From: Byssothecium circinans
Lineage: Eukaryota > Ascomycota > Dothideomycetes > Pleosporales > Massarinaceae
NCBI GenBank assembly: GCA_010015675.1
Contig: ML977038.1
Coordinates: forward strand, 1-64,000
Direction: 5' to 3'
DNA: 64,000 bases
The position numbers and the translations under genes are program-made. Of the stretch, positions 1-42,985 are shown one piece after another (within the stretch, counting starts at the first letter, position 1; each line of letters begins with the position of its first letter). The notes under the pieces are model-generated. The model was given only the letters and a program-made list of their open reading frames with translations. It did not search any database and was not told the origin of the DNA.

Positions 1-123
1 TATTTAAAATTTCAGCTTAATAGCTTTAGTATTTAAATTGTTATTAAAGGTTGAATGTTTGATTTTCCTGCCAAGGAATTTTGGCGCGCTCGATGGTGTG
101 GCGCGCTCGATGGTGCTTTACGT
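1..123 (-). mobile_element. End of a non-autonomous Fot/pogo-like element (cut by window edge)
   Basis: The segment ends with the inverted terminal repeat of the element family seen at 32772-33847: a tip reading ACGTAAAGCACC on the minus strand, then two direct copies of a 13-bp unit with a GCGCGCC core, then TTCCTTGG. A TA dinucleotide follows at 124-125. The inner part matches the left end of the 32772-33847 copy in reverse complement, so this is the left end of a minus-oriented copy whose remainder lies outside the window. Confidence 0.7.
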
Positions 124-3100
124 TATAATTTAAACCTCTTAATAAGAAATAATTAGAGGGTAAGTCTAGTACTAGCAGCTATAGTAATTCTAGCTTTAAT
201 AGCATATATTAAAGTTATTATAGTTAAAAAGCTTATAGTTACACCTTTAGCTTAGCTAGTAGGTCTACTCTACTATATATACTTATCTAGCTAGGCTTTG
301 TCTTCTAGAGAACTGTATACTCTTTACTAGGTATATTAGGGACTAGGACTTTTACTTTAAAAAAATTAGAGTATTTAAAGTAGGCCTTTACTTAAATATT
401 ATAGTATAGAATAATAAAATAGAATGTTAGTTCTATTTTATTAGTTTCTAGGACTACTATAATAATTAATAGGGATAGTTAGGAGTATTAGTATTTAATT
501 ATTAAAAGTAAAATTCTTAGATTTATTAAAGACTAACTACTATAAAAGTATTTGCTAACGATATTTTTATTAATTAGTAAACAAAAGTTAGGGGATTAAA
601 GATATTTAGATACTATTATAGTCTTAACTATAAACTATACTAACTAAGGATTAGGTAGTATTATTATTTTAACTTACTTAGTACCTTATAAGAAATTAAA
701 GTGTTTAGGTTCTAAGGGGAGTATAGTTATAAGGCTGAAACTTAAAGAAATTAATAGAAAGGTACTACTAGGCGTAGAGCCTACGGCTTAATTTAACTTA
801 ATATAAGAAAACTTACTAGGACTAGATAAAATAAGGATTAATAGATTAAGAGCTCTTTCTTAATTTTTAAGTAGTAGTGTATAGCTATTCTTAGTTAGTA
901 GAGTAATTTATCTACTTAATTATAATAATAAATAAGACTTTAACCTACTAAATAGCTAGGCTAGCTTTAGCTAGTTGCTAGCTTCTTAGAGGGACTATTA
1001 GCTTAAGCTAATAGAAGTTTAAGGTAATAATAAGTCTATAATGCCCTTAGATATTCTAGGCTGCACACGTGCTATACTAATAGAGCTAACAAGTTTTTTT
1101 CTTTATTTAAAAGAGCTCAGTAATCTTATTAAACTCTATTATACTAGGGATAGAGTATTATAATAATTACTCTTCAATAAGGAATACCTAGTAAGCGCGT
1201 GTTATTAGCACGCATTAATTATGTCCCTACTTTTTATATATACTACCTATTGCTACTACTAATTAAATAGCTTAGTAAGGCTATTAGACTAGCCTATAGA
1301 GGTTAGTAATATCTACTATAGGCTAGAAAGTTATATAAACTTAGTTATTTAGAGAAAGTAAAAGTTATAATAAGGTTTCTATAGGTAAACCTATAGAAGG
1401 ATTATTATACTTAGGTGCTCTAAAAGAACCCTTTACTACTATAAGGTAGTAACTATACCCGCTATCTACTTATACCTTTTATTATTTCCTTAGTAAACTA
1501 CTTACGCTAGCTGCTAGGAATACCTTTAACCTTTATATCTAGAGTATCTAAAACTCTAATAAGAAAAGAAATAAATTATAACTTTTAATAATAGATCTCA
1601 TGGTTCTAGCATTAATATAAAACGCAGTAAAATATAAAAAGTAGTATAAATTATAGAATTCTATAAATTATTAAATTTTTAAATATATATTACGCCTCTT
1701 AGTATTCTATAGGGCATGCCTATTTAAGCGTTATTATTACCCCTAAGCTCTACTTAGTATTAGGCGTCTATCCCGCCTTAGTATATAGACTTACTCTAAA
1801 GCTATTAGTAGTAGTTATGCTAGCTTCTAGTATAGCATATTTACGCTTCTTAAAGCTATAGTAGATTAGCATCTAGTAAGCCCTCTATAGTTTAACCTTA
1901 GATTAGGTAGGGATACCTACTAAACTTAAGTATATTAATAAGGAGAGGAAAAGAAACTAACTAGGATTACCCTAGTAATAGCAAGTAAAGTAGTAATAGC
2001 TTAAATTTAAAATCTAGCTCTTTATAGGGGTCTAAGTTATAATTTATAAAGGGTGCTTTAGTATTAGTAGTAGCCTAAGGTCCTTAGAATAGGATATTAT
2101 AGAAGGTAAAAATCTTATTTATAGTTACATACCTTTACTATATAAAGCCCCTTTAATAAGTTAAGTTATTTAGGAATATAGCTCTAAATAAGAGGTAAAT
2201 TTATTTTAAAGCTAAATACTAGCTAGAGACTAATAGCGCACAAGTAGAGTAATTAAAAGATAAAAAGCACTTTAGAAAGAGAGTTAAATAGTACGTGAAA
2301 TTATTAAAAGAGAAGCGCTTATAGCTAGACTTGCCTATAGTTGCTTACCTAGGCGTATACCTAAGGTACTTTTTTATAAGCAGGCTAGTATTAGTTTAGG
2401 TAGTTAGATAAAAGCCTCTATTATATATCTTTCTTTAGGATAACCTTATAGGAGAGGTAATATATAACTAGCCTAGACTAAGGTCTACGCTTTTATTAAG
2501 ATGCTAGCGTAATAGCTATAAGTAGCCTATCTTAAAATATAGACTAAAGAGTCTAATATCTATGTAAGTATTTAGGTGCTAAGCTTAAGCGCGTAATAAA
2601 AGTAAATAGAGGTAGGAACCCTTAGACTTACTATTAACTAATCTTAATATCTTTAGATAGATTTAAGTAAGAGTATAGCTATTAGGACCTAAAAGATAGT
2701 AAACTATGCTTAAATAGGGTAAAGCTAGAGGAAACTCTAGTAGAAGCTTATAGTAGTTCTAACATATAAATTAATTATTAAATTTAGGTATAAGGGTAAA
2801 AGACTAATTAAACTATTTAATAGCTAGTTCCTATTAAAGTTTCCCTTAGGATAGTAGTAATATTTTTAGTTTTATAAGGTAAAGTAAATAATTAGAGGCC
2901 TAGAAGTTAAAATAACCTTTACCTATTCTTAAACTTTAAATATATAAGAAGTCCTTATTACTTAATTAAATATAGATATTTAAATATATTATTACTAGTA
3001 GGCTATTTTTAGTAAGTAGAACTAGCAATATAGGATAAACTAAACGTAGGGTTAAGATACTAGAATACATACTTATTAGACACTATAAAAGGTATTAGTT

Positions 3101-3730
3101 TATCTAGATAGTAGGATAGTAGCTATAGAAGTTAGAATCTACTAAGGAGTATATAATAACTTACCTACTAAATAAACTAGCCCTAAAAATAGATAGCGCT
3201 TAAGCGTATTACCTATACCCTACTACTAGGGTAGATATTAAGCCCTAGTAAGTAGGTAAGCGTAGAGGTCTATAATAAAGCCTTAGAGGTAACCTTAGGT
3301 TAAATAGCCTCTAGTGTAGATCTTAGTAGTAGTAGCAAATACTTAAATAAAAACTTTAAGAACTAAAGTAGGGAAAAGTTCTAAATAAATAGTAGTTAGA
3401 TATAGGTTAGTTAACTCTTAGAGATAAGGTAACTTTATTTTAATATTAGTACTTACGCTACACCTCTAAAAGGGAAGCTAGTTAATATTCTAGCACCTAG
3501 ATATAGATTCTCTATAGTAACGTAACTAAGAGTAAAGACCTTAGTAGGAGCCCTAAGAAGAGTTCTTTTTTCTTCTTAATAGTCTATTATCCTAAAATTA
3601 GTTTATCTAGAGCTAGGGTTTAGTAGCTAGAAGAGCGCTATACTTTTATAGTATTTAGTGCGCCCCTAATAGGCCTTAAAAATCTACTTAAAGGAATAGT
3701 TTTTATACTAGGTTATACTTAAGATCCTTC
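124..3730. repeat. RIP-degraded AT-rich DNA, element type not identified
   Basis: About 3.6 kb of very AT-rich sequence, dense in TpA and stop codons, with no usable open frame on either strand. Composition matches the RIP-mutated transposons further right, so it is most likely one or more dead transposons, but I could not recognise a protease, reverse transcriptase or transposase motif. The Helitron at 3754-13227 interrupts this AT-rich block, which resumes at 13228. Confidence 0.6.
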
Positions 3731-3753
3731 CAATTTTCGTAAATGGGAATTAG

Positions 3754-3767
3754 AATTTGCGGAGCGA
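3754..3767 (+). repeat. Left inverted terminal motif of the Helitron
   Basis: An 11-bp core TTGCGGAGCGA is the exact reverse complement of the right terminal motif at 13214-13224; 13 of 14 bases match if the AT-rich flank is included. It lies about 25 bp inside the composition change. A weak 7-bp stem (3732-3738 with 3745-3751, two G-T pairs) sits just outside it on the plus strand. Confidence 0.6.
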
Positions 3768-4018
3768 TTTATCACTTGGGGTAGAGAAGAAGAGTAGTTA
3801 TGCAATAAAGCTTTTTCATTCAGATAGTTGAGCTACCTATCCTAGCTAGTATGTTAGAAACCTTCCGTGTTCCAGTCCATTATAACTCCTCAAATTGAGT
3901 AGTATAGAAAGCTATACTTTGCAGATAATATCCATTTAACGCTAGTAGTCATGCCTCATACCGCCTAATACCCTTGAGCTTGACATGTAGGAGATAGGTA
4001 GCATAGTGAGATACAGCA

Positions 4019-4765
4019 TTAGGCGGGCAAGTCCTGCAGAATCTTGCTGTATGGAGCAAGAATCTTGCCAACACTGATGACATGCTTAACGTCCTTGGCT
4101 TGAATAGTGACGCGCTTCCCATGGATAGCACCAAGGTTTGTAGCTAGGCACTATTGTTAGCAGAGGCTAATACCATACGAATTAGACTAATACCTTGCAA
4201 GATGTCCACTAGGAAGGCCTCAGCAGCAGCCTGTAAGGCGTCCAAAGCCCTAGACTGGAAACGGGACACAGGGTCACCATTTCCCTCTTGATTGTTCTGC
4301 AGCACCTCGCGAACTAATCTCCTGAATGGCGCTACTGGAATCAAGTCACCTAGAGTCTTCTGGTAGAAACGGATCTCTGCTAGAGCAAAGGCTAATACCA
4401 GTATTAGTCTAGCTGCAGTAATATAGGTCAAAAACTTACTGCCAGGCTTGCGACGCCTAATGCGAGGGCCTCCCTTGCTAGGGCCTTTGTAGATGGGAGC
4501 ACGCTCCTTCTGCATAGCGTAGCTTATCGGCTTCCGTGTTGGCGGCGGCGACCCTCCCTTCTTCTTGCGACCCTCATATGGGTTCGTGCCAGTATTGGTA
4601 GGAAGCTTCTTCTGGCCTTTCTTGTGAGGACCCAAAGCTAGACACAGTTAACATGTGGCTAATACTAAGACTAATACCTAGCCTACCTTGGGCGCCATTA
4701 CCCTTGCCAGCTCTGCCACGAGGAGCCTTTGCAGGCAGCTTGCCTCGATTCTTCTAGGCGGCCAT
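4019..4765 (-). pseudogene. Histone H3 variant (long-tailed, CenH3-like) carried by the Helitron
   Basis: Removing introns 4638-4686, 4392-4439 and 4144-4193 (49, 48 and 50 nt, each with a GTATTAG pair) gives four exons totalling 199 codons. The C-terminal half is an H3 histone fold: PGTFALAEIRFYQK matches PGTVALREIRRYQK of H3, followed by PFRRLVREV, an extended loop 1, then FQS.AL.ALQ.A.EAFLV and TNLGAIHGKRVTI. The roughly 95-residue tail is Lys/Arg/Gly/Pro-rich and lacks the ARTKQTARKS start of canonical H3. Long tail, longer loop 1 and divergent C terminus are typical of centromeric H3 (CENP-A), though it keeps Phe rather than Trp at the start of helix 2. The only lesion seen is TAG at codon 4, consistent with CAG changed by RIP. 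It is divergently arranged with the gene at 5582. I am sure of the H3 fold and unsure that it is centromeric. Confidence 0.85.
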
Positions 4766-5581
4766 GATGGTATGTTGTAAGGTGTATGAAAGAAAATAAG
4801 GTAGACGTAAACTGACTACTTTTTAGTTAGAAAACAGACGGAAAACCAATGACGTTGACAGTGAAAGTGAAAGTGAGAAATGAGAACAGTAAAAGTGAGA
4901 AATAGGAATAGTGACAGTACGCAAGGAAGTCGAAATTAGTAGGCAATAGAAGGGGAAATTGTAGGGGAGTATACATACAGAAAGGCTAATACCAAGCCTA
5001 ATACTTTAGTTGTAGCTGTACTGCAGCTGCAAAGCTTTGCGACTACAAAGACAGCAAAATCGCAAAGATCGAGAGTTGTTAAAGTGCGGGGTGGTAGGTA
5101 AGCACGAGAAGTAAGAAGGCAATGTGAAGGTGGCTAGTAAGGGTGAGCGGTGAAGGTGAGCGGTGAAGGTGAGGGCGCAAAGAGAAGTGAAATGAGAGAG
5201 AAAACATTACGTCAGCGAGAAAACCACGTATGAAGATGGGAAACGGCTTCTAAAGAGAGACTAATACCTAACCTAATACTATGATTCTAGTATGTACTTG
5301 TGCAGCTGACTGAGCTACACACGCTCATGCCAGAATCATGTCGTAAAGTGTTGGGCGCATTTAACGCACACGACAGGCTGGTGATAATTTCCCGTGATTG
5401 CTGCCTAGCCCCACTTTCAATTTCGTGTAACTATAAACAAACTTATTGCTGAAAATTTGCCACTTAACACTACTTCCTACACACTCCTTATACAACGTCT
5501 ACGCACTACACGCAACTTTGCCCCACTACTAAATAACGCCTAATACCTACCTAATACATCCTGCTAAGCCCTCTCGCTGCA
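4766..5581. promoter_or_regulatory. Shared divergent upstream region with short repeats
   Basis: An 816-bp spacer between the start codons of the H3-variant gene (-) and the unknown gene (+). It holds short direct repeats built from GTGAAAGTGAGAA-like units (about 4857-4920) and GGTGAGCGGTGAA units (about 5145-5175), plus three GTATTAG-type pairs near 4985, 5261 and 5537. The pair near 5261 is followed by a CTAAC-like site and an AG, so 5'-leader introns are possible. No open frame is convincing here. Confidence 0.45.
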
Positions 5582-7253
5582 ATGGCAGACCGGAAGAAGG
5601 TGAAGGCTGCTGATGCATACTCATTAAATGCAAGCACCATCAAAAATAACAAACTTCGCGCAAGCAAGCAGGGCGAAGACTTCATGATTCAAAAGGGAAA
5701 AAACGCCGATAATAAGGTATAACAACCCCCCCATACCTGAATAATTATATACTGACTTAGTAAAGGCGTGCTCTACTTTCTAGACAAAGAAGTTCTTGCC
5801 ACGTATTCAGCACCTGCTTGATAGCGCTACAGATGAAAATGAGCGTAAGCAACTTGAGGACATGCTTCGAATTCAGAGTCGCAATGCAGCGCTCAAGGCC
5901 AGGTATGAGAAGAGTATTAGTCTGGTATTAGGTATAACTAACAATACACAGGGAGAGTTAGAATCTGCTCTGGATACAGCTAGCCATGGCACGCACTGGA
6001 AAGCTAGAATCCGACTACAAAACTGTGAGATCGGTCTTCAAGCCTCAAGAAAAGGTCTGGGCACTAGAAGATGAGTTCATGCCGCCTTAGTATATTGTTG
6101 ACGCTGCCTCGTCTACTATCAATGAGAGTGCAGAGAGCAGTAAGTCAAGCAAAAAGGGCAAATCTAACGCAGGCAAAGCGGATAAAAAGATGATGGACAT
6201 CAAGGAGAAAAAAGAAAAATTTGATATAACAGTGCCTAACCTGAGCAATAAAGAGAGGGAAGAATGGACAGAGCTTAGCTACTGGCTACAGGTGAAGAGA
6301 TACTGGAATAGAGAGCTTGACATTGTAGTGGAAAAGTTGAGGATTCTCTGTTATTAAGGGCTGAAGAGATTCATTCTACGCATGCCGCAAGGCATGTTTA
6401 TTGTAAGTGCAACGCAACTAACCTAATACCATGGCTAATACCAAGCAGCGCTATATCCAGTGGCTTAACCCAACACTCAATGACCAAGTCGCTCTTCTGG
6501 TGGCTGGAAAGAAGCCAGTGCGTTTAGGATAGGTGAGTGGAGTATTAGACCTGGTATTAGTCTAGAACTAACCATTGATAGGCTGGTGCTACTCAAAAGG
6601 TGTTCAAGAAGACTAAATTAAAGCTGCCTGTGCGATGGGGTCGAGTAAGTGTGGTATTAGTTAGGGTATTAGGCATAAGCTAACTATAACAGATCATCGC
6701 TGCAAGGTCAGCACTACAGAAGTTAGAAGTGCCTTATAGATACCTGATCAGCGTTGACACCAAGTCAAAGATGCCTGTTCCGCCATTCCCTATGCTATTC
6801 CCCTGACAACAACGCGTGCTACTCTCTCTAATCTACCAAGCACAGCGTGATGGGGATTATGCAGACTCTACTATCCAACTCTTTCGCGATGGTAAAGCAT
6901 GCAAGCTTCCTAGTGCGTATAATCTACGCACTATTGAAGACTATAGCGCACATTTCCCTAAGGTATAGGGCGAGAATGCAGGATATGCTGCAGATCTACT
7001 TGACCATATCATTGCAGAACTTCCTACAGAGAATACTTCCCAAGGCGAACCAATGGAAGGTGTGCAAATGGAAGAAGATGCAATAGAAGGTATTAAGCTA
7101 GAGGTTCCCCATCAAGGCTATAATAACGGTGTGAAGATGCCTAACATTACGAAATTCATAGAGCTTAAGAGGCTAGGCGATGAGGGTGATGTTGATCCAA
7201 GTCTGTATTCAGTAGATGGTACAGACACAGAGACCATATGCTCTAGGGATTAG
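5582..7253 (+). pseudogene. Unrecognised Helitron cargo gene, six exons, broken by stops
   Basis: From ATG 5582, introns at 5717-5783, 5903-5951, 6403-6445, 6533-6581 and 6645-6692 join six exons into one frame of about 470 codons. All have GT..AG borders and four of the five contain the GTATTAG pair. In-frame stops occur near 5959 (TAG), 6088 (TAG), 6354 (TAA), 6530 (TAG), 6804 (TGA) and 6968 (TAG); each fits a single C to T change from Gln or Arg codons. The predicted protein is hydrophilic with a Lys-rich N terminus, a Ser/Lys-rich stretch around residues 130-165 and an acidic C terminus after about residue 400. I see no signal peptide, membrane segment or known domain. It shares its upstream region with the H3 variant, which suggests co-expression, but no function can be assigned. 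Confidence 0.6.
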
Positions 7254-7399
7254 GATATGGTCACGGAGTATTAGGCTGTGGTATTAGGCGCTCTATCCAT
7301 CTAGATAGATTAGGGAAACTTTCATAGGAATGCTTGTATTATAGGAAACCACCCTTGCAAAACCTCTCAATGACAGTGGTATTGGTCTAGGTATTAGAC
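7254..7399. other. Convergent spacer between cargo gene and Rep-helicase
   Basis: A 146-bp spacer where the 3' ends of the plus-strand cargo gene and the minus-strand Rep-helicase face each other. It contains two GTATTAG-type pairs (about 7265-7285 and 7378-7397). No coding potential is seen. Confidence 0.4.
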
Positions 7400-10300
7400 C
7401 TAGAAAATAGTCTGCTGCACTGTGACGTGATGACGCGCCCTACGCCTTATATCCTGCTCTCGCATCTCTAACACCTTGCTTCTCTTTTGCTTCAACCGCT
7501 GATAGGAAAACACATCCTCAAACATTAAACCATCAACAGTCTTAACCCTTGAAAGCGCAACGTACATCAAGCCAGGGCAGTGATCTCGCTCCCCACTAAC
7601 CGTGATCACAGCCTTATCCACACTTAAACCCTGGGATTTATGAACTGTAATAGCCCAGGCAAGTGTAATAGGGAATTGAATACGCACATGCATACTCTAA
7701 TTAACAGTAAATTCCCGAATAAGAGGAAACACTGGAATAACCTTTGTACCATCTGGAAGGCTGTAAAGACACAGCCCATCATACTTATCCATAGCAACTA
7801 ATACCGCCTTTGGTGTAGCCTTGCGACAATCCTGGGTATTAGGCTGCCAAAGGATATTGTCGACAACCCCCATAGCCCTATTAACCAAACTACGCTCTGT
7901 CCAGATATTGTCAAGTAGCACAACCCGGGCACCAATAAATACAGGGAGCTGGTTATGGAGATTCCCCGCATCCTTGGTGGACACCTTCTCTTGATCTTGA
8001 CTATCATGTGTGGCCTGTAAAATAAGGATAGGCTGGCCAGAGTCCTGGAGGCAGTTATGATTAATAGCAGCTACCTCTATCCTCTTTGCGCATATACGCA
8101 AGGCAGAATTAAAGGAGTTCCGTTCTACCTCGCTAAGCTCAACGCTGCAGCGTTTCATAAGGAGAAGCCAGTCATGGACATTAGGCTTCTCCTCACGGAT
8201 ACGTGCAAGAGCATCATGGAAGGAAGCTTGTTCAGAACCCTGCTGGCGCATAACTACATCTAGAACAATAGTTCTAGTAAATAGTTTATATAGCGCCGCA
8301 CCAGCTGTATCTGAAGAGCTGTGGCTCTTTGTAGTATCGAACATAGGCCTTCTCGCGATAGGGGGTAACTAGTAAAAATCACCAGCCAGGATAATGTTTA
8401 AACCGCCAAAAGGATAGCTGGCCTGTGCTGGAAAGATCTCACGGCACCTCATATCTAACCACGCTAGTGTTGTTAGCCCTACCATAGACTTCTCGTCTAT
8501 AATAAGGTAACAAACATCAGTAAATAGCGCTTGGGTCTAAGCTAACGCTGCTGGAGCAAGAGGTGGAAGCACACCACCAGGAGATCGAATTGGTATGCGG
8601 AAGGTAGAGTGGATAGTCTTTCCTAAAATAAGAAAAGCGGCTACTCCAGTTGGTGCGCACCGTATAATAGGTGATTTCTTCCCTAAAGCCCTCGCAATAC
8701 TATCCATAGTAGAGGTTATAACCTCAATAGCGTACGTCTTTCCAGTACCACCCTGGCCGTTAAGGTTAAGAAGAAGCTGCTCTGGCCTATTCCTATCTAG
8801 GTAGGCTTGATAATGATTGACGATGAGATCGAACAGTAGCCGCTGTTTAGACTGAAGGGTATTAGGCGAGGTATTAGGTCCAGTAGCGTAATTGACCGGA
8901 TGAGCTGTCTTCATCTCCTTCTAATATTGACGTGCATTAAGGCCGTAACTATCCTTATGCTCAGGTACGTTCCAATCCTTCTCTAGATCAACTGGCCGAC
9001 TGCCTAGGTTATCCTCATCAACGATAACACCATCGGCACTAGGGAGACGACCAGCAAGCTCATTCCACGATGACTCATCCGCTAAATCCACGTCTTCCTA
9101 ATCTGGATCTTCTTCCTCGTTTTCAGGTAACACCTCTCCAAAGCTATCGGGTAAAGGGTGATTGCATACCAACAGGCAGTTCTGATAGGCTTGCAAGAAT
9201 AACTGGTACTCCTGGCCGGCAAAGGTCCTTACATCTAATACCTGTCGAAATGGATGATGTAGCATAAGCTTGACGCGAGAGAAGTCTTCCCTATCTAACT
9301 CAGGAGAGTATAGAGGGTAAAACTTCAAAATCCTAGGCCTAGCCCAGGGCCTAACTCAATTCTTTGCATGGTCGTAATAAAGAAGGTAGTCTAAATAGGA
9401 TATGGCTTCAAGTGACGGAGGCCTCTCCTTGTATTTTACCAGCACAGAACGGCCCTCAGTAAACTAAGGTGTATCTTCCTCAAACACTTCATCATCAACT
9501 TGACGATTAGCTTGAAAGACGTACGTCTTAGGCTGATCCTCCTCACAATGAAGGTTAACGTTAAGAATAGTATGACTACAATCCGTGAGGGGCAGATTAA
9601 AGAGGATGTGGCAAACTTCCTGAGCGCTATAGTCCCTCTGGCCCGCCGATTTATTCATTAACTTTGCCGCAAACTTGAACATAGCATTCTCGGACTGGAT
9701 ATGAGGCAGTATCTCAGTAGCCATATCCTTAAACGACGTCGTCTGCTGCTCTGCCTTGCTAACATATAGACCAACATATTAAACAACACCTGCAGTACTA
9801 GTGCAGGGCTGTATGTCAGTATTAGCCCGCCAGCCTAATACCAGAGTTCGACAGTACGCGTTTAGAAGTGGATGATTCCGTTGAGCGTGGAGACGGTAAA
9901 AAGACTTCCTAGCTAATTTGGCGAAGTAGGGATCAGCTGTACGTGGCTAGGGAGCCTCAAAGCGACAGACTACCTCACCCGTCTTCTTGTTTTTCCTTTG
10001 GCAGTAACTAAGATGACATACATGCATGTAGCACTTAGTCAAGATAGTAGCAAGTTCGTGAAAGTCGAAAACCATCTGATCAAATGCAAGAGATAAGGGA
10101 GAGCCATATGAATGCTCTAGAGTAGCCTTGTGTGGGTCGGGATGAACAGCGCTAATGTAATAGCCCCAATACTTTGCTAATCGTCGCTTCTTAAGCTCAG
10201 TAGCATTCTGAGCCAAATACTGATCAGGATGAGGTGCATCCCCACAGTAGTATAGGCCATAGTTATGAGTACTACCATGGCCCTGCCACTCGTAACGATG

Positions 10301-12780
10301 CCAGAAGTCAACAAGGTTGAACTTAGGCATCATAACATGCTTCTTAAATAGTTCAAATCGACGGTAGAACCAGTAAGCAACAATGTGTGGGTTGTCGCGT
10401 ACGAAATCCTGTGCCAGCCTTGCTCGACGTGCATCAGTTGCAGTCTACCACTCAGCAAAGGCCTCCTCTCCCATAAATCTCATGAGATTAGCCCAATGGT
10501 AATCCGCAGCAGAGTATGTGACAAATAGATGAGGACATCGCAGCTGACGAACCTATTAATAAAAGTTAGATGTTGACAACAAGGGTATTAGCCAGGTATT
10601 AGGCAGACCACACGTACCATAGCCTTCAGGTTTATACCCTCTACTTTCCAATACGCATAAGAACCTCAAATAGAGGCAGAGAACCGTACTATAGCGTTAA
10701 TTAAACTCTGCCCACCATCAGCGCTGTTAAACTAAGCTTGAATATCCTCAGCCGTCATAGAAGCGCCGTCTAGTGTCTTCCTCACAAAGAAACCCGCCTT
10801 TGCAGTAGTTTGCCTGCGGAGAAGCGTATTAAAGGCAGCAAAACGGAAACGTGAGTGATGAGCAAAACGTCCATCCTTATAGCTTATCATGTGCTGAACA
10901 TAGTCCGCATATGCAACCTCCCGCATCCTTGGTTGCATATAGTCACCAATTCCATTTGGATATAAGGTAGGAAATGCAAGACTAAGGATCTTTTCCCAAT
11001 TGCTATATTTAGAAATAGGTGTCCTTCGCACTAAGCCCATAGTAAAGTAGGAAGGTCTTGATTGGATTTGACGATGCAAAGTCTCAAATTCGCCAACATC
11101 AGGAACAATATTAGGAACCACGGTCGTGTCGGCTCCATTATCGTCATTATCATCCTCATCAAAAATCGAGCTACCATCGTAGTAGGAATCCGCGCTAGTA
11201 TTGGGCCTGGTATTAGGTGGTGACCCATCTGGTATATGGGCGGTCGCAGCAGGTATAGACGGTGGGGGTGAATGGTCTGGCGTATAGGATGGCGACACTG
11301 GCTCTTGCGTATTAGGATAATCCCCTGGCCCAATGTCTATACCCCCATGCTGAAGCACAGTAAATTGATCGTCTACATACCCATTAATAGGGAGTTCTTG
11401 AATAGCCTCATCATTAATAACAATATCGCTGTATCCAGAGTGATGTGCCTTTAACTATTGCAGCCAACGCAACACTACAGTGCGCCTTACTTTCCAACTC
11501 TTCTTGAATTGACGTTCAACTGAAGCGTGGTCGTCCTCATCTGAATGTGGTGGTTTAAGGATAATAATATTAAGCTTAGATGGAAGGACAGGAAGCCTTG
11601 AAAATACCCTAGCTACATTAATGGCGAAATGACATATATGTCCTCTGTACTTATACTGCTGCCCACGATGCTGACATATCTGCATAAAACAGTGAACCTG
11701 GGCAATAAGCATCTCCTCAACATCAGTAAGAGAAGGGAGGTTAGGTATTACACCTAGATCCATATTGTTTGCAGCACTAAATATAGGCACCTAATCCTCT
11801 TCAGCACCATGTTTAACGCGATTAGTTAAACAGGCAGCACATTCCCCACGGTGAACGTTTAGGCGAAACTAATGACGGTTGCAAATTATACACGTCTCTA
11901 TCTCTTCTTTCTTAAGTGCGTTATAAAGCGTAGAGATATACGTTTTATCTTGATCAGATAATGCAGGATTAGAAAGATAGGAACTGTCGTCCTGAATTCG
12001 TAATAGGGGCTCTTCTAGAGGGAAGTCGTATATATTCTCTTCCGCCTCTACAAGCATCTCTCTATCCACACCATCATTAAACTCATCAACCACATGTTCT
12101 TAAGACTCGGCTGCTGCTATACCATCATCCAACTCGTCGACCACATGTTCTTCAGACTTAGCCGCTATGTAGGTTGTACGACTAATACCAGGACCAATAC
12201 TAGAGCAAGTATCGCGTGATTGCACTGAAGATGGAGGGGTATTCCACAAAACACCCTCCCCTTGCTGTTGTAAATACCACGGCTGCGATGTAGAATGTAT
12301 CACGGCCATCCATGGTAATGGTTGACTGGAAAGCGTTTGTGACGACGATAGGGGTTCAATGGGAGTCGTGGCGCTTAGCGGTGCCAACGGGGGAAGTTAG
12401 GATAGGCGAGGTAATAGCGACGTATTCGAAGACCAAGACGGTGGCCTGATACTAAGACTAATACCAGCCGCACGAAGAAGCTGCTGCTCGAGTGGAGTCC
12501 CTGGTGCGGTTGGCGCATGCGGCGTAGACGTTAGTACAGATTGAGGTTAGACTAGCGTTGGAGTACGGAGAATACTAGATAAAGGACCAGAGTCTAACGT
12601 TGGCGTTGCGTGATACTTTGTAGGGGGTGCAGCTTTGTACTCTAACGTATTCGCTCGCCGTTTATAACTCTAAGTAACTGTAAGGCAAGCCTGACAGTTC
12701 TTCTTCCATTTATTATTGCGAAATTAATTAACGCCAGGCGTAAGAGGTGCGTTGCAGCGATTGCAGTGTGGAACATCCAT
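7400..12780 (-). pseudogene. Helitron Rep-helicase (RepHel), RIP-broken
   Basis: One minus-strand frame runs from ATG 12780 to TAG 7400 across about 5.3 kb (roughly 1,770 codons) with one intron at 10553-10617 (65 nt, GTACGT..CTAAC..AG). In order: an N-terminal double CxxC motif; a second Cys pair region and a DUF6570-like block with VEEMLIA and QYKYRGH; a Helitron_like_N block (FPTLYPNGIGD, KDGRFAHHSRFRF); the Rep nuclease with EWQGHGSTHNYG at the HUH position and a Tyr pair in YVGLYVSKAE; then a Pif1-type helicase with Walker A GQGGTGKT, IIDEKSM, GDF.LPP and the closing HKSQGLSVDKA and YVALSRV motifs. More than ten in-frame stops are all TAA/TAG where Gln would fit. The gene would nick, unwind and rolling-circle-transfer the element, but cannot be made from this copy. 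The second His of the HUH motif reads Tyr. Confidence 0.9.
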
Positions 12781-13227
12781 AATAACGTGTAAAGGTACGT
12801 GGATGGAGGGAAGTAGTATTAGGTAGTGTTATGAGGTATTAGGCCTATAGTGTAGCGAATTTTTTCTTCACAACATAGGGTTTAGTCATGTTGCCGCATG
12901 CAGTGGCTGGTAGACAAAGTAGCGCAAGCAGCTTTTGGACCCTAAGCCCCTGTTTCACTGCCTAATACAGGACACGCGACACGCGTATTAGTCGTGATTC
13001 CGAAGAACATCATTCAAAAAACACTGTTTTATCCACGCATACCTATTACAACGAATTAAATATAGGCTGCTATTAGTAGAACTATCAAGGGTACAGTTTT
13101 TAGCATATATAGAAAAATCAGCAATGAAATTCAATAGGTAGAAGTACGTCAAAATGCGATTTTTTGGAAGCCCTCAGGCGCGATTTGGATTATAGATTTG
13201 CTACGCTCGTTCCTCGCTCCGCAAAAT
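12781..13227. other. Helitron 5' terminal non-coding region
   Basis: About 450 bp upstream of the Rep-helicase start (element 5' end, as the gene is on the minus strand). It has two GTATTAG-type pairs (12817 and 12960/12983) and ends with the right inverted motif. No open frame. The last 40 bp contain overlapping CGCTCGTTCCTCGCTCCGC, able to form short imperfect stems. Confidence 0.5.
13214..13227 (-). repeat. Right inverted terminal motif of the Helitron
   Basis: TCGCTCCGCAA at 13214-13224 is the reverse complement of the motif at 3757-3767. The composition switches back to AT-rich RIP DNA directly after it, which supports this as the element boundary. Confidence 0.6.
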
Positions 13228-15858
13228 AACTATAGTAGGTCTCTAAGGTAAACAGCCTCTAGTTAATAGAACAATATAGATAAGAGAAGTTAGTAAAATA
13301 GATCTATAACTTTAGGAAAAGGATTAGCTCTAAGGCTTAGGTATATTAAGCCTTAGGGAGAAGTCCTTAGCGCAGATTAGTACTAGCTATAAGGTAGGCG
13401 CCTTTTAGCGCTAGAGTTCTAGCACTCTTAGTAGGCTTTAGCTGTCTAGTATACACTTAATAACTAACTTAGAACTAGTATAGATAAGGGGAATCTAACT
13501 ATCTAAAACATAGTATTATAATAGCTAGAAAGTAGTATTAATATAATATAATTTCTACTTAGTGCCTTAAATATTAAAGCAAAGAAATTTAACTAAGCGT
13601 AGGTAAATAGTAGAAGTAACTATAACTCTCTTAAAGTAGCTAAATGCCTTATTATCTAATTAGTAATATATATAAATAGATTAATAAGATTCCTACTATC
13701 TCTATCTACTATCTAGTAAAACTATAGCTAAGGGAATAGGCTTAGCTAAATTAGTAAGAAAAGAAGGCCCTATTAAGCTTAACTCTAGTTTAATATTATA
13801 AAAAGATATAAGGGGTATAGAATAAGTAGGAGCTTTAGCGCTAGTAAAATACTACTACTCTTATTATCTTTTTACTTATTTAATAAAATAAAGCTAGGTC
13901 TTACTACCTAACTTCTAGTATAAAGGTCTTCTATAGGCTAATCTAAGTTAAAGATATTATTAGGTAAGGAGTTTAACTAGGGCAGTATATCTATTAAACT
14001 ATAACATAAGTATTCTAAGAGGGACTTATAGAGAATAGAAATCTCTAGTAGAGTAAAAAGGTAAAAGTCCCTTTAATTTTAATTTTTTATATAAATATAA
14101 ACTATAAAAGTATAGCCTATTAATCTTTTAGTCTCTTAAAATTTAAGGCTAGAAGTGCTAGAAAAGTTACTATAGGGATAACTAGCTTATAGCAGCTAAG
14201 CGTTTATAGTAATATTGCTTTTTAATCCTTTAATATTAGCTGTTCCTATTATACTAAAGTAGAATTTAGTAAGTATTAGATTATTTACTTACTAATAAGA
14301 AATATAAGCTAGGTTTAGACTATTATAAGATAGGTTAGTTTTACCCTACTAATAACCTCACCCTAATAGTAATTCTACTTAGTATAAGAGGAACTATAGA
14401 TTTAGATAATTAGTTTTTATAGCTATCTAACTAGGTATTACTATAAAGCTACTATCTACTAGATTATAGCTAAACGCCTCTAAGTTAGAATCTATGCTAG
14501 AATAGGGTGAATTCTACCTATATATTAGAGTTAGATATAAATAGGCCCCTAGCCTAGAACCTTAGTAGGCTAGTAATAGTAGTCCTACTTAAATTAGGGC
14601 TACTAGCTAGCGTATTATAATTTTACTATGCGTAGGATTAAATCCTTTGTAGATAACTTAGTTATCTAGCTAAGTTATATAAGTAGTTAAGTAGCCTTAT
14701 TATTATAAGCTACTAAGCGTAAGCCTACTACTAGCTTAGTTAAAAATATCTTTATTTTACTATAGTTAAGGTCTCCTTATTATAAGAGAGGGAGGATATA
14801 TTATACTTATATATAAATAAGTAGTAGCTTTAGTAAGATAGATAGGTACTACTACTACTAAAATACGTATAAAATATATTAAGATATATAAAAGACTACG
14901 CGCTATATTAGGGGTTCTTAGTATATAGGCTAGCTAGCAGCTAAGGCTTTACTACCTTACTAGCTACTAAAGAACTAAATTAAAGATCTAAAACTAGCGT
15001 AGAGTACTACTATAAGCCTATATACCTCTAGTAGGCCTATTTCTTAGTAGGCTTATTTTCTTTCCCCCTCTAGCTCTACTATCCCTACTAGCTACCTAAG
15101 AATAGACTTATAATATAACATTAGCGTATAAATAAGCCTTAGGGAAGCTATAGGTAGTTCTATTTTTAACTACGTTATCTTAAGGTAAGATTCACCTATA
15201 GGTTATAGGATACCTTCCCTTCTAGCTTTACCCCCTTACTAGCTATAAAGGAATAGACCTTAGATTTAAAATTAATATATAGAATAGCCCTAAACAGGCT
15301 TGTAATAAGTCTACTTCTAACTACTTTTATCTTTAGGTAGGATTCCTTAGGGAATCCCCCCCTCTAGCTCTTACCCCTTACTTAGCTACTAAGGAATAGA
15401 CCTTAGATAAAGTAGTTAGAATTAAGCCTGCTAATAGCCTTACTAGGCCTATATTTTATATAGATTATAGATCTAAGGTAGGTAGGTTATAAGGTTCCTA
15501 AGTTAGCTTTATCTTCTTTATAATTTAATATTTATAGTCTTTTTAACCTTGCGGCTTTTGTCTAATAGTAGTAGGGGGCTGCGTCTTTAACATTAGTAAT
15601 AGTTAGATTTCTTATGTTTTCTACATATAAAAGAGATGTGATAGTAATAGTAGTTAACCAGCCCTCTACTCTTAATAGATATACTATTTTCTAAGGATAA
15701 CAGTAGTTAGATTAATCTGCGTAGCAGCATAGATTATTACTAATAAGTCCCTTAACAACGTATTAACGCAATACAAAGCACTAGATGCTAGATATACTTA
15801 AGCGCACGCTTAAGTTACTATTTCTAGATGTAATTAACGTTCTCTTTCCTAATCTAAT
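13228..15858. repeat. RIP-degraded AT-rich DNA, unidentified
   Basis: About 2.6 kb of TpA-rich, stop-filled sequence without recognisable domains. Its first part may continue the element interrupted by the Helitron. The stretch 15543-15850 is slightly less AT-rich and might be a solo LTR of another family, but I could not match it to anything else in the window. A short tandem repeat lies at about 15062-15530. Confidence 0.55.
15062..15530. repeat. Three decayed tandem units of about 145-155 bp
   Basis: Units starting near 15065, 15217 and 15361 each open with a CTCTAGCTCTAC-like block and a CTAGCTA..AAGGAATAGACCTTA block, and two continue into an AACTACTTTTATCTTTAGG-like block and a GGATTCC-like block. 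The units are diverged by transitions, as expected after RIP of a tandem array. Confidence 0.55.
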
Positions 15859-16039
15859 TGTAAGGAGCTAAGCTTAAGGAGCTAGAGATACTAAGTAGAA
15901 TATAGATATATTTATTAAGAGAAAGTTCTCTTAAGCATAAATCTATATATAAGAGAACTTAGAGATTACTCTAGAGCTAGTTTAAAGGACTTAGAGTTTA
16001 AAGAGTAGCCTTTAAAGAACTAGGGCCTAGCCTATTATA
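15859..16039 (-). repeat. LTR of the inverted Gypsy copy
   Basis: A roughly 181-bp sequence matching, in reverse complement, the LTRs at 25818-26001 and 34542-34725. It still begins TGTAAGG on the plus strand, preserving a TG terminus that RIP changed to TA elsewhere. The adjacent ATGCCCCC is the complement of the polypurine tract, so this is the 3' LTR of a minus-strand element. Confidence 0.8.
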
Positions 16040-17930
16040 ATGCCCCCTCTTAAAGGCTAAAAGAATTTCTAAGGGATAGTAACTCTAGTATACTATCTAG
16101 GATTTATAATCTATAGGGTATCTTTAATAGCTCTATAGGTCTCTAATATTCTTAGCTGCTACCTATTATACCTAGTATTTCTTATATACTTAATTCTATA
16201 CATTTATAGTCCCTTCTCTATGCTATCTTAGAGTTCTTAATTTTCTTAAATAAAGTTCTTTTTATTTGCTATTGCGTTCTAGAGAATTCCTTCTTTCTTT
16301 ACTTACTTAGATATAAGAACTATTTAATTTTATAGTTAACTTTTAAGACTAGGTAAGAGAAGTTTATACTATAGTTAACTCTTTTTATACTTCTTAATAT
16401 CTAGTTTAGTCTTCCCTAGATCTCTCTACACTTACTATTATCTAATTTACCTTTGCGTTTATTCTCTTACCTAAATAAATAATATTAGTATAGTAGGGGC
16501 CTATACTCTAAGTAAATAAAAGCTTTTTTTTTTTTTTTACTATTTTCTCTTTTTTACTTCTAAACTTTTTCTTACTATTACTTATAAAGTTTTTTTACCT
16601 ACTATTATAACTCTTTCTTTTACTAACTTATATCCTACTATTATCTATGCTATTATACCTTTTTATACTAATACTTTACGTAAGACCTAAGGTACTACTT
16701 TTAAGATATATACTCTTATTACTTTATTACATAATACTAGTCTACTATCTTTATCTACTTACTATACTATCTATAGTAGAGGATAGGCTTCTCCTAAGGT
16801 TCCTTATACTAAGCATAAGTATAAGCGTAAGCATAATAATCTCTAGTATAAGATAAATACGTTTAATTTAAGGTTTAGTAAAAAGGATAGTAGTTAAGTA
16901 TTTTAATTCTCTTAGTTTTTTATTTCAAATTCCGTACTAATATTCCTAGGAGCTTAGTAATTTCCTTACTATTCTAAATAAGAAACCTACTTTTTATAAT
17001 CTCTATACTATTCCTACTAAGTAGACTACTCTTAGCTTTTTTAAGAATACTATTAAGAGTTAAGTCTAGATATTCTTTAGTAACTTATACTTATATATTC
17101 CTTACCTTTACTATCTTTAAGAGGTTAGCTTTTACTACTATAAAGCTTAGAAGAGTTATAAGGCTACTACCTACTAGGAATATATAGATACTAGTAAAAA
17201 GTACTTACTAAGGAACTCTCTAAGTCTACTATAGAAATTATTATTACACTTATTAAGACTTTCTATTACTATAATATAAAGGTAGCTACTTAAGAGAAGG
17301 CTAATAAAGCTTAGTATACTATTACTAAGGCTTTAGATAAGTTTACTAGTAAAAAGCCTTATAAGTCTACTATATCTAGGCTTGCTATCTTTAGTAATAG
17401 CTCTTCTATTAATAACTTTACTACGTATATTAGTAAGCTTACTAAGGCTACTTAGTCTTAGATAGATAAGATTATTACTAGTATTATAAGTTTTCCCTTT
17501 AAGTTCCTTTCTCTAGATACTAACTATATTAAAAGGATAAGCTTACTTTATTCTTAGATATCCTTAAGGCTACTATTAATAACTTTTACTTTTTTATTAA
17601 AGGTCTAACTATGGCTTGCTATAATTTTACTTTAATTTAATATTTATAATCTTTTACTTATAATACTACTACTTACAACTAGACTATCTATAAGGATACT
17701 TAAAATGTAGAGGAGAATAAAGAAGCTAATAATAAGACTATAGATACTATAAAGGGTTAGGTTAATAATAAGGGTAGTACTAAGTAGTATTTTTACTTTA
17801 TTTTTCTTCTTAGTTATATCTAAGAAGGGGTTTTTAAGTTCTTAATCTTATAAAGTAAGAATTTTCTTTATATATTCTACACTTTACTAAGCTATCTAAG
17901 AAGTGCCTAAAAGGTACCTAAATATTAAAC
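16040..17930 (+). other. Post-pol region of the Gypsy element, possible antisense reading frame
   Basis: This stretch lies between the polypurine tract and the chromodomain end of the minus-strand Gypsy element. Its frame with fewest stops runs on the plus strand, antisense to pol, especially 17200-17560, where stops are sparse and many are TAG/TAA at plausible Gln positions. I do not recognise a protein. The same region is kept in the plus-strand copy. Confidence 0.4.
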
Positions 17931-19734
17931 CTTATTTTCAGACTTATCTCTCTTTTCTAGACTATAATATCCTCTTTTCCTCTTATAAAGTCTTAGGTTT
18001 TTATCTAAGTTATCTATAGCTTAGACCTCTAATCTTACTATTCTCTTATCTCTTATACGTAACTACGCGTAGCTCTAGGCGTTCTATAAACCTTTCTATT
18101 ATTTCTCTATTATTCTAAGTATAGTTTTTATCTAAGGGTTCCTAAGAGTTCTATAGTTACTTTCTTTTTTATATTCCTTCTTACTACTCCTATTTCTTAG
18201 GGTTTTCTAATCCTAGAAACCTATTTCTAAACTTTTACACTTTAGGCGCTTTATTTCTCTTCTTTTTATATCTCTTTTAATACTTATAACAGTTCTACCT
18301 CTATACCCTATACCTTTTTCTAAGGATATTAGTTTTGCCCTAGTAATCTCTACCTAAACTTAGGTAGTAGACTTCTATCTTCTAGTTAATACTCTATAGA
18401 GAAACTCTTCTAGTAATCTAAGGTAGTAGTCTCCTTTAGGGCGCCTATAAGTTCTTAGGTAGTTCTAGCGTACTCTCTTTACTTAACTTTATAAAGTAAG
18501 CGTTTTCTATGCCCCCTCTATACTATCTTCTTAGCTATAATATTCTTAATTACCTACTCTAGAGCTCTATCTACTACTAATACTTTAGGTTAAGAATTAT
18601 CTATCTATTAGCTAGGAAGTAGATTACTTAAGTAGAGTCTTAGATAGTCTATATAGAATATAAGGTATATTTCTAGTAAAGTATTTAACACTATATTATA
18701 TATTCTTACTACTTTAATTACTTTAAACTTTATATTTTTCTAGTCTAGCTTCTTATTAGGCCTTCTATTTAAGATTTATTTTTTATACTAGAGCTATACT
18801 TTATCTCTAACCTTAAGTACTAAAGCTTCTTAGTAGTTTTAGTTTACTCATTTCTTCTATTTTTATTAGGCTAAGGCTATATTTACTTAGACTAATTTAA
18901 AGGTTTCTTTAAACTTCTAGACTATTAATTTTATAGCTTTCCTAAGGTTTAGGCTTATCTAGTGCTAGTTAATTATATTAAGTTCTTTATCTAGGTTTAT
19001 AGAAGCTATATTATAACTATATATAAGAAAGAAAGGACTAACTCTAGTACTTATTACTATTCTTCTCTTAATTATAATCTAAGTAGTAGGATATAGTAGT
19101 ACCTAGTTCTATTAATTCTAGTTTATAAAAACTTAGAGGTAAGCTTCTACTACTAAGTTTATATATTCTATAGCTCTATAGTCTAGGGGTAGAAGGTTAT
19201 TAATAGTCTCTTTTTAATCTTAAGCCTTTTATATATTACTAACAAAAAGTTGCTTATAAATTAGAAACTATAGTTAGATACTATAGTATCTAGGAGGAAG
19301 TAGTAGGCTACTACTCTCTTAATAAATACCCTTATAACTATCTCTACTTTTATATTAGGGAGTAGAATTAATACTATATTCTTGCTTAGCCTATCTATTA
19401 CTACTATAAGGTTAGTATAGCCTTAGCTCTTTAAAAGCCTAATAATAAAATCTATAAAGATCTCTTTCTAAATCTATTCTAGAAAAGAGAGTAGCTTTAA
19501 GAAGCTTCTCTTTAGTTCTCTCTAGGGCTTTATACGTCTATATACGTTATAATTCTTTAAATAGATCCTTATTAAAGTAGACATCCTAGGCTAGAAGAAC
19601 TTCTATATAAAGATATTATAGGTAACAGCCTTTCCTAGGTAGCTAGTTAAGGGTAAGTTATAGGTTTTAGTAATTAATCTAATGTATAATAGCTTAGAGT
19701 TTAGTACCTATTTATATTTCTAGTATAATAAATA

Positions 19735-21584
19735 ACGTAAAGCACCACCGAAGCGGCCACCCCACCAAAGCGGCTACTTTTCCTTGGCAACACCAACACT
19801 ACACTCATCACGAAATGGCTCAACCAACAAATCCGTTACTTATTCAACAAGAAGGCAGGATTGAGCTTGCCCTTCAGGCTTACCATTTAGGCCAATTTAA
19901 AAGCCTCCGACGCGCTGCTGAGGCTTTTAACGTTCGTCATCAGAGACTCTCTGCACGCCTCAACGGAACCGCCTTTCGACTAACAACAGTACCGAACTGT
20001 TCAAAACTGTTCTCAACTGAAGAGGACACGCTTGTCAAATATATCCTCGACCTTGGTTCGCGAGGATTCGCGCCTACGCTGGGCGAAGTGTTGGATATGG
20101 CGAATAAACTACTACGCGAGCGGGGTGGAGAGAAGGTTGGCCATAACTAGGCAGAACGGTTCGTGAACCGTTCAGAACAGTTACGAACGGTTTGGAACCG
20201 TTCAAAGGACCGTCAGAGAGCTCTACAGGAGGATCCTGAGGTGGTTGGCGCGTGGTTTAAGCTTGTGGAGGATACCAAAGCCAAGTACGGTGTACACGAC
20301 GACGATATACACAACTTCGATGAGACCAGCTTTCAGATGGGTATTATTGGCTCTATGAAAGTGGTTACTGGCTTAGAGAAGCGAGAAAGGCCTACAACGG
20401 TTCAGCCAGGCGATAAGGAGTGGGTGACAGACATCCAGAGTATATGTTCAAATGGTACATTCACCCCGCCATTCATTATATACAAAGGACGCGTCCACAT
20501 CTCTTCGTGGTACCAGGAAGCCGATATGCCACGCGATTGGAAGCTCTCGGTCTCAGAGAATGGATGGACGACTAATGAGCTTGGTCTCGCGTGGTTGAAG
20601 CACTTTGACGCGCATATAAAGGCGAGAACTGTTGGCGTCTATCGGTTGCTGATTTTGGATGGCCATGAAAGCCACCTAAATCAAGATTTCAAGGATTATT
20701 ATTATGACAATAAGATCCTTACGCTCTGTATGCCACCGCACTTGTCACACATCCTCCAGCCGCTCGATGTGGTGTGCTTCTCGCCGCTCAAGCGCAAGTA
20801 CTCTAAGATCATTTAGGGCTTGGCGCAAAAGCGCGTCTTTCACATCAACAAGGAAGCGTTCCTACCAGCCTTTAAAGACGCGTTTTCAAGCGTGTTTACG
20901 GTTCAGAACTGTCGAAAGGCCTTTGAGGCAACAGGGCTAGTCCCTCTAAACGCGCAGGTGGTACTTGATCGCCTTGATGTGCGTATACGCACCCCGCCAG
21001 GACCCCCACCACCAGAGACGCCATGGCTATCGAGGACTCCGAGTAATACACGCGAATTTGGCTTATAGTCAAAGTTCGTACGTGATTCTATTACTCGGTC
21101 ACCACGAACGGCGCAGGATGGGCTTTCGCAGCTCGTCAAAGGCACTGAGTTGGTGCTGCATAACACTGCGCTTATGAAGGCGCGCATTGAAGAGCTTGAA
21201 CAGCAACTTGCAGTAGTAACTAAGCGAAAAACACGCAAGCGCAAGTATCTTCAGAAGGGTGGCACTATGGAGTTTGGTCCTATAGTAGACTAGGTCAGTT
21301 CTGAACCGTCAGGAACCGTTCAGAACCGTAAGAGGGCGAGGGTGGAAGGTGAACACAAAGTGCGACAACCAGGTATTCGCCACTGCGGCAACTGCGGTAA
21401 GGCTGGGCATAACGCGAGAACGTGTCAGGCAGATGAAGAGGGTTCTTCTAAGTCAGAGGTCAGTACTCAGTTTATCATGTCAAGTAGCGATGTGGACGAT
21501 AACGATGATGAAGTTGAGTGAGTTAGTGTTGCCAAGGAAAAGTGGCCACTTCAGTGGGGTGGCCGCTTTGGTGGTGCTTTACGT
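19735..21584 (+). mobile_element. Fot1/pogo-family DNA transposon, copy 1
   Basis: An 1,850-bp element flanked by TA (19733-19734 and 21585-21586) with inverted termini starting ACGTAAAGCACC. Inside each terminus a 13-bp unit with an AGCGGCC-type core is directly repeated, then TTCCTTGGCAACACC. It is inserted in the minus-strand Gypsy element, whose sequence continues on both sides. It is less mutated than the DNA around it. Confidence 0.9.
19815..21521 (+). pseudogene. Fot1/pogo transposase (DDE_1) with C-terminal zinc knuckle, copy 1
   Basis: One frame of 568 codons interrupted by four TAG codons at 20148, 20814, 21066 and 21291. The N terminus is a helix-turn-helix of the psq/CENP-B type (SLRRAAEAFNVRHQRLSARL). 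The DDE_1 endonuclease carries the three acidic residues in NFDETSFQMG, LILDGHESH and LQPLDVV. A basic, coiled region near residues 460-480 is followed by a CCHC zinc knuckle, CGNCGKAGHNARTC, close to the C terminus. Such transposases cut and paste TA-flanked elements. The stops fit G to A and C to T changes, mostly of Trp and Gln codons, so this copy was probably inactivated by mild RIP. The open stretches otherwise look intact. Confidence 0.88.
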
Positions 21585-39536: not shown

Positions 39537-41712
<2,176 letters not shown>

Positions 41713-42648
41713 GTTGTATGGGGCCGTATTACGGGTAGATCGAAGAGTCGTTGAAGTGAGTGGAGTGGACGAGGTCGTATTCGGTCGAACTAAATAGTTC
41801 CGAGACTCTGCTGGTGAACGACAGAAAAACTGTCGGTCTAGGTGACTATGAGAACCGTCAAATACCAGGCAGAAACGCGCCTGAAACTCTTCGTGATAGG
41901 AAGTGGTGTTCCCTTTCCCACAAACGACCGAAGAAATGAGAGCGAAGACCAAAGGAGTGGACTTCACCTGCGGTGTGGTAGAAGACTGGAGATGCACACA
42001 AGAGGGGTTGATGTGTGGGAGAAATTGTTGTGTGAGGGAAAGAGAGGAGCCGGGCAGAAAAAGAAGGAAAGAGCCTTTTTGCCACTAGTGCGCTAAGCCT
42101 GAATCCAACTAGTGCCTTTGCCCAGCCTGGCAGGCGGTGAGACTGGGGGCTGGATTTGTTACGGTGAGTGAGCCGCCTCTGACTTGCTGCGGCGCAACAC
42201 GGCACGACATCTGGACCTGCAAACTGCGTCGCATGTGTCTTTCTTTTTATCCCTCGTCCTGCTGGTGTGGCTTTGATCAGGTTGTGGGCCCGTCGTCGGC
42301 GAATTCGGTACACTAGATACGTAGGCTCAAGTGCTCGTACCCACGTAGTAAAATCTCGAGAAATAAGCTAACAGCCATACTCTGGAAAACCCATCCTGGG
42401 GGCATTCAATACCTAATACTCCGCGTCACCCTTGAGCTTCAATGGCAACTAGAGTTGTGACAGCTTGCTTCCCGAAATCATCTTTCCACTCGAGGTACCT
42501 TTACCGGCTGGAGAGTCTCAACGTCTGATTTGCACGTGCAGAACCGCAGAACTACGCTACCGCACGCATTCACAGGCACTGGGCAAGGTCAGGCTTGTGA
42601 ACGTGCTCCATGTATATTGACTACGAATGTACAAATGCAATAATGTAT
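41713..42648. other. Ded1 upstream region and intergenic DNA
   Basis: The 400 bp next to the Ded1 start, read on the minus strand, are CT-rich and probably contain promoter and 5' leader. An open frame of 151 codons (42313-41858, minus) overlaps it, but it has no recognisable content. 42320-42648 shows nothing definite and probably includes the 3' end of the cyclophilin transcript. Confidence 0.45.
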
Positions 42649-42932: not shown

Positions 42933-42985
42933 CTTGAAGTAAAGGAAGTATCAGCGCCTCTCCAGCAAATCAAACCACAATTGGC

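Follow-up and report, generated by a model that had tools for sequence, protein, structure and literature searches.

Does a rolling-circle transposon of Byssothecium circinans carry a core histone gene of its own, and if it does, what was the gene used for? The question is raised by the window (the whole 64,000-nucleotide stretch of DNA that was analysed), for which the original prediction placed a histone H3 variant gene inside a Helitron at 4019 to 4765. Transposons counter silencing through proteins and RNAs. If one of them indeed supplied a core histone of its own, it would act on the substrate of silencing itself.

Structure and Identity of the H3 Variant Gene

The gene was spliced in silico from 4765 to 4019 on the minus strand, giving 199 residues with one stop (codon 4). 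Exon 1 (4687..4765) encodes a basic tail and contains that stop, exon 2 (4440..4637) continues the tail to the PG of αN, exon 3 (4194..4391) runs from αN to α2, and exon 4 (4019..4143, with the terminal stop codon) holds the end of α2, α3, and a C terminus that is divergent, as had been predicted. Intron 1 (4638..4686), intron 2 (4392..4439), and intron 3 (4144..4193) measure 49 bp, 48 bp, and 50 bp, respectively, and all three are GT..AG introns. The spliced product matched Pfam Histone with 88 bits (E 7.4e-25, cut-off 26.4). The three tiny introns and the complete H3 fold of the original prediction were both recovered in this way; the H3-like stretches quoted there occur in order in the product, and the profile search proposed there as a test of the fold found it.

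The closest solved structures were histone H3 chains (PDB, E 8e-23), and the element protein shows the H3 signature PGT..AL..I...Q, F.RLVRE, and AIH.KRVTI. A second AlphaFold model, the better one with a pLDDT of 65.6, showed the H3 helices in order. When the predicted model was submitted to Foldseek, the best 18 rows were all nucleosome, UAF, or Cse4-H4 entries with 42-49% identity, and one of these 18 reached E 0.001. The tail is unrelated to the H3 tail. The stretch that precedes PGT in the fold has roughly double its H3 length, and neither ARTKQ nor ARKS nor the canonical ARTKQTARKS was found in the 199 residues, which agrees with the doubled tail lacking ARTKQTARKS that had been described from the sequence.

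A Byssothecium circinans database protein, publicly annotated as 'histone-fold-containing protein', was 100% identical to the H3 of the window across 84% of its length. Its gene model has 171 aa, begins further downstream, and so bypasses the codon-4 stop. Because exon 1 is recognisable in other copies, we infer that the longer 199-residue model is the original one. Besides this record of its own, the protein search of the H3 variant returned just five weak H3-like proteins. Judged by its sequence, the gene is a full-length, strongly diverged histone H3 gene, and chance is excluded because it recurs in many copies with the introns in place.

Relation to Canonical H3 and CenH3

The comparison set contained 33 fungal CenH3 sequences and nine H3 sequences, the H3 being mostly from organisms other than fungi. 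Splicing by eye combined with a script gave the host H3 (L001) and the host CenH3 (L002), and this CenH3 was 100% identical to a Byssothecium circinans database record. Loop 1, by the definition used here, has 15 residues in the H3 variant, against 10 in the nine H3 and 11-16 in the 33 CenH3, and is longer than in H3, as had been claimed. The Phe of AEAFLV is of the CenH3 type (28/33 CenH3). In the Trp column of RWQ, all 33 fungal CenH3 have Trp, and the H3 variant and 9/9 H3 have Phe; in a further diagnostic column, the variant and 9/9 H3 have Ile, and 28/33 CenH3 have Leu. Two of the three diagnostic columns therefore favour H3, and one column together with loop 1 favours CenH3. The best core identity of the variant (55%) was to one fungal CenH3.

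In the tree, the terminal branch of the H3 variant amounted to 8.8 changes per column. The CenH3-constrained tree, which the search had missed, beat the free tree by 3.7 log units, and the H3-constrained tree fell 0.25 short of the free tree. The AU test rejected neither the CenH3 grouping (p 0.60) nor the H3 grouping (p 0.51). The original prediction had called the variant CenH3-like. This description holds for loop 1, but an identity as CenH3 was not supported, given the Phe at the diagnostic Trp column and the two AU values.

Among the 38 columns that are invariant in the 42 other H3 and CenH3 sequences, the variant kept 29, and it had the majority residue at 20 of the 57 variable columns (Fisher p 1.3e-4). 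This column pattern is as would be expected for a protein that was selected for function during its divergence, before or after capture. Nine invariant residues were lost, five of them consecutive (QLARR) near the C terminus. We take the QLARR block to lie on the side of H3-H3' pairing, and tetramer formation by the H3 variant is doubtful because of its loss.

In the host genome search, the closest genes to the element H3 were the host CenH3, with 41-52% identity depending on the exon, and the host H3, with 51% across 131 residues; no donor gene was found. The two core introns of the element H3 are positioned unlike those of host H3 and CenH3, as compared by eye; the tail introns are not comparable.

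The Helitron2-Group Element

The H3 variant lies within a Helitron2-group element of 9506 bp on the minus strand (3721..13226). Both ends are flanked by a host T on the plus strand (3720 and 13227). The 12-bp inverted repeat TTTGCGGAGCGA stands near both ends with asymmetric spacing: its left arm (3756..3767, plus strand) lies 35 bp inside the end at 3721, and its right arm (13214..13225, minus strand) 1 bp inside the end at 13226. As the spacing of the repeat and the sense of the RepHel gene agree, 13226 is the probable 5' end and 3721 the probable 3' end, and the H3 gene therefore adjoins the probable 3' end. The left end was common to all 15 fetched copies and the right end was visible in 10 of them; copies were fetched at 10 kb each, and the remaining five right ends were cut by the fetched stretch, truncated, or interrupted. 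The base next to the element was a plus-strand T at 15/15 left ends and 10/10 visible right ends, which is an A on the RepHel strand, and a one-base duplication would be indistinguishable from it.

The RepHel gene (7400..12780, minus strand, start codon set by eye) is broken. Along it, DUF6570 (11455-11790, Pfam 9.4e-23), Helitron_like_N (10732-11454, below the cut-off, and 9947-10444; Pfam 7.7e-10), and the PIF1 helicase (8369-8920, Pfam 5.7e-11) were matched on the minus strand. The Rep and PIF1 matches, which fall on successive same-strand pieces with broken frames, probably belong to one gene. Its same-frame pieces, which may include introns, contain nine in-frame stops in 1508 codons. No Pfam match to an endonuclease was obtained among the scanned pieces of the element, where the broken frames limit sensitivity. 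The Helitron context proposed for the gene is thus borne out by DUF6570, Helitron_like_N, and PIF1 on one strand, by the shared ends, and by the inverted repeat.

A second gene runs on the opposite strand (5582..7253, plus), with four motif pairs (see below) at its candidate introns, which were placed by eye. Neither its pieces nor its two read-through halves gave a Pfam match, and the region was found in other copies of the element too.

Copies, Stops, and RIP

The searched genome comprises 48.4 Mb in 109 contigs, and all copy counts are lower bounds. The query (window 3724-5000) gave at least 32 rows, which include at least 26 long copies (that of the window among them) with H3. Those 26 cover the gene because their match begins at the 3' end and takes in at least 1017 of the 1277 bp. 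The row on C59 has part of H3, the row on C14 covers 68 bp of a copy that has lost this end, and four rows match nothing but the terminal stretch, over 38-60 bp. The H3 end is missing from at least four long copies (C14:1.08-1.09 Mb, C30, C23:107-114 kb, and C99); those on C30, C23, and C99 retain the 5' end and the helicase and gave no row in this search. The four copies may indicate that movement without H3 was possible, or may have been truncated later. At C33:228556-229562, the site of one of the four terminal matches, both element termini were seen about 1 kb apart without H3, probably as a short non-autonomous derivative. The original prediction had named a conserved locus outside Helitrons as evidence against it; in the host genome, the gene was found at many Helitron insertions, and the other H3-type matches were only host H3 and CenH3.

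Over 1267 sites compared in 16 copies, 259 sites showed transitions and 10 showed transversions. The classic CpA context of RIP accounted for 150 of the transition sites and other contexts for 109. Few transversions and many transitions indicate that the copies were nearly alike and then underwent C-to-T mutation, as after RIP. Every one of the 16 spliced H3 copies carries at least one stop: the window copy has a single stop, and the remaining fifteen have between 5 and 19 each. An unchanged H3 exon length was seen in 15 of the 16 aligned copies, and 47 of all 48 introns still have GT..AG; in copy L010, the match to the element reaches no further than 4740, and part of its exon 1 is DNA from outside the element.

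The low number of stops in the window had been taken to mean that H3 was spared from mutation. This was not upheld: the rate of stops in H3 (1/199) is the same as in RepHel (9/1508), with a probability of 0.67 for at most one stop, so H3 was not spared. A stop within the first four codons was seen in 0/15 other aligned copies, and the codon-4 difference of the window is a transversion and not of the RIP type.

The surroundings of the element in the window (1-3720 and 13227-20000) are AT-rich (28-29% GC) with strong RIP indices. On these indices, RIP has worn the element itself much less than its flanks, and the DNA that it entered had therefore been worn beforehand. Among the left flanks of the 15 fetched copies (226-232 bp each), the mean GC was 0.32, with every value below 0.42, compared with 0.54 at window positions 40000-52000, and TpA exceeded ApT in all 15. 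Either insertion preference or survival bias could account for such AT-rich flanks.

The GTATTAG Array

GTATTAG or its complement CTAATAC occurs at 41 sites in the element (3965-12985), often as same-strand pairs 11-13 bp apart. The paired form GTATTAG-N4-6-GTATTAG was found 11 times in the window, always inside the element, and never in 100 shuffles. One pair (GTATTAG-N5-GTATTAG, 4659..4677, minus strand) lies inside H3 intron 1, and the other ten start at 4986, 5261, 5540, 5914, 6423, 6542, 6654, 7268, 8859, and 10585. Genome-wide there were 376 pairs, against 1 for the reversed control. Among the 100 pair places listed, 90 fell in copies of this Helitron family (counted by coordinates), nine in Ser-Asn-Thr-type repeats on C3 and C7, and one on C13.

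Six of the 41 sites fall in the 147 bp of H3 introns, two per intron (in intron 2 the two copies face each other), and none in H3 exons; 13 single sites lie within RepHel. Two motifs per intron were kept in 14 of the 15 other copies, and L012 has one in intron 1. The motif was also seen to supply the 3' splice site of intron 2, which ends in it, and the 5' splice site of intron 3, which starts with GTATTAG, and motif gain may therefore have created introns.

In RepHel, the motif reads Pro-Asn-Thr at 7836, 8859/8871, and 11210, the last two places being outside the Pfam-matched spans, and sites 7798 and 9235 read differently. C47 holds a relative with 79% identity in the helicase region, in which 8/8 motif words were kept, against a baseline of 19% for all 3139 7-mers and 58% for the 281 RIP-proof 7-mers of like GC content. 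By the 58% baseline, the chance of keeping all eight would be near 0.01 if the sites were independent, which neighbouring sites are not. A 12-bp motif unit, in frame in RepHel, was observed twice at 8859-8877, where the C47 relative has it six times. The product of the plus-strand gene is a candidate for the motif-binding protein.

Capture, Use, and Rival Explanations

We give a probability of about 0.5 to the reading that H3 was a standing component of a multi-copy Helitron2-group family: captured, kept working while it diverged, and used while the element was mobile. An ancestral element would have read past its own 3' end and taken up an H3 gene (end-bypass capture). The captured gene would then have been maintained as a working gene during its divergence and put to use as long as the element moved, and RIP would have inactivated the family later. 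The constraint seen in the columns may predate capture, because the copies, RIP apart, are too alike to measure selection (10/1267 transversion sites).

The H3 variant would presumably pair with host H4. Its likeliest use, which we propose tentatively and at odds well short of even, would be in nucleosomes with host H4 on the element DNA or on a circular intermediate. Such nucleosomes could not take H3K9 methylation, because the tail is without the H3 sequences around K4, K9, and K27, and the formation of heterochromatin would be delayed. This would fit the hypothesis that the element marks its own chromatin. It is unlikely, in our estimate, that the family possessed a whole chromatin kit, in which a K9-less H3 is combined with an array of GTATTAG sites paired at one helical turn, and anti-silencing or deposition of the H3 variant is directed to these sites by a protein of the element, for which the plus-strand product might serve. 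On that reading, the GTATTAG sites in spacers, linker codons, and self-made introns would make up a convergent, histone-based counterpart of VANC.

The H3 gene may instead have been a mere passenger, captured by chance and functionless, which the amplifying copy happened to carry. There is precedent in a Culex Helentron, whose eight copies hold fragments of H4 and H15 in broken form (PMC4067079), the gene adjoins the probable 3' end, where end-bypass cargo is placed in the part of the Fusarium survey that was available (PMC5148889), and the copies look like one recent burst, so that H3 in all long copies could be hitch-hiking. Even so, we consider this rather unlikely. The H3 is full-length with its introns in place, has no closer gene in the genome than host H3 and CenH3, and besides its own record finds just the five weak H3-like proteins. 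Its core introns stand, by eye, at other positions than those of the host genes, and all three introns hold the motif of the element. H3 resided in the element long enough for remodelling.

Mimicry of CenH3, giving entry to centromeric or AT-rich chromatin and steering insertion, or transmission via kinetochore chromatin, would suit the loop of 15 residues, the AEAFLV Phe, the 55% identity to one fungal CenH3, and the AT-rich left flanks of all 15 fetched copies. It is improbable in view of the Phe for Trp and the Ile for Leu, both H3-like, and of an AU test that rejects neither grouping; moreover, the loss of genic insertions could also yield AT-rich flanks. Very improbable is interference with host histones, by which titration of H4 or chaperones, or poisoning of H3-H3' pairing, would open host chromatin during transposition: the invariant QLARR block is lost in a protein that kept 29 of 38 invariant columns, but a toxic effect would harm the host of the element.

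A mobile family in Byssothecium circinans with an altered H3 suggests that an element may have shaped its own chromatin. Such an element would also show a route by which histone variants could move and arise. The family offers a case open to testing, in which a rolling-circle element has spread a histone gene at full length together with a motif array that resembles a targeting code; the GTATTAG array merits study of its own.

Comparison with Known Systems

The original prediction knew of no established Helitron that carries a core histone variant. This needs qualifying, since Helentron-Cq-32A of Culex quinquefasciatus contains H4 and H15 fragments in its eight copies (PMC4067079). These have a stop, a frame shift, and indels, and are 83-84% identical to putative parental host genes (PMC4067079). 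In both cases, a multi-copy rolling-circle element of the Helitron2/Helentron group holds histone DNA; the present element is set apart by an H3-type gene that is complete and has three introns, by the lack of a close parental gene in the host, and by at least 26 long copies. Within the literature searched, mostly openly readable papers, no report of a full-length H3 in a Helitron or another transposon was found. The word 'histone' is absent from the available portions of the main texts of a paper on the cargo of Helitrons from fungi including Pleurotus (PMC4289320) and of the Fusarium survey (PMC5148889). Histone capture by a Helitron is already published; the searched literature gave no case of a Helitron family that retains a diverged H3 at full length.

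As far as the consulted part of the Helentron paper goes, a Phytophthora proto-Helentron encodes a SET domain, and the subterminal repeats of Helentrons are set 2-4 bp in from the 5' end and 38-60 bp in from the 3' end (PMC4067079). Unlike a strict Helentron, the present element gave no endonuclease domain match fused to RepHel, within the limits set by the broken frames. The accessible sections of the Fusarium survey describe asymmetric repeats in fungal Helitron2-group elements and an end-bypass capture that would add cargo next to the 3' end (PMC5148889). By the same sections, FoHeli of Fusarium oxysporum resembles the present element in being fungal, about 9-11 kb long, with asymmetric terminal inverted repeats and no endonuclease, and FoHeli3 in its extra opposite-strand ORF with no known domain; FoHeli differs in its termini and its target preference (PMC5148889).

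With fungal CenH3 (Cse4/Cnp1) and canonical H3, the element H3 shares the H3 fold, and with CenH3 the long loop 1. It differs from both in a core identity of at most 55%, a remodelled C terminus, an unrelated tail, and its place on a transposon, and from CenH3 also in the Phe at the Trp column.

The GTATTAG array recalls VANC and VANDAL21 of Arabidopsis. In the available part of the source, the VANC target motif of VANDAL elements, YAGTATTAY, whose spelling happens to resemble GTATTAG, is dense in introns and spacers and grows by the formation of tandem repeats (PMC5735166). Both systems have a short, family-specific motif in same-direction arrays in introns and spacers (PMC5735166, in part). 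The elements are unrelated, and no VANC-like protein was recognised in the present one; the resemblance is one of arrangement and not of kinship.
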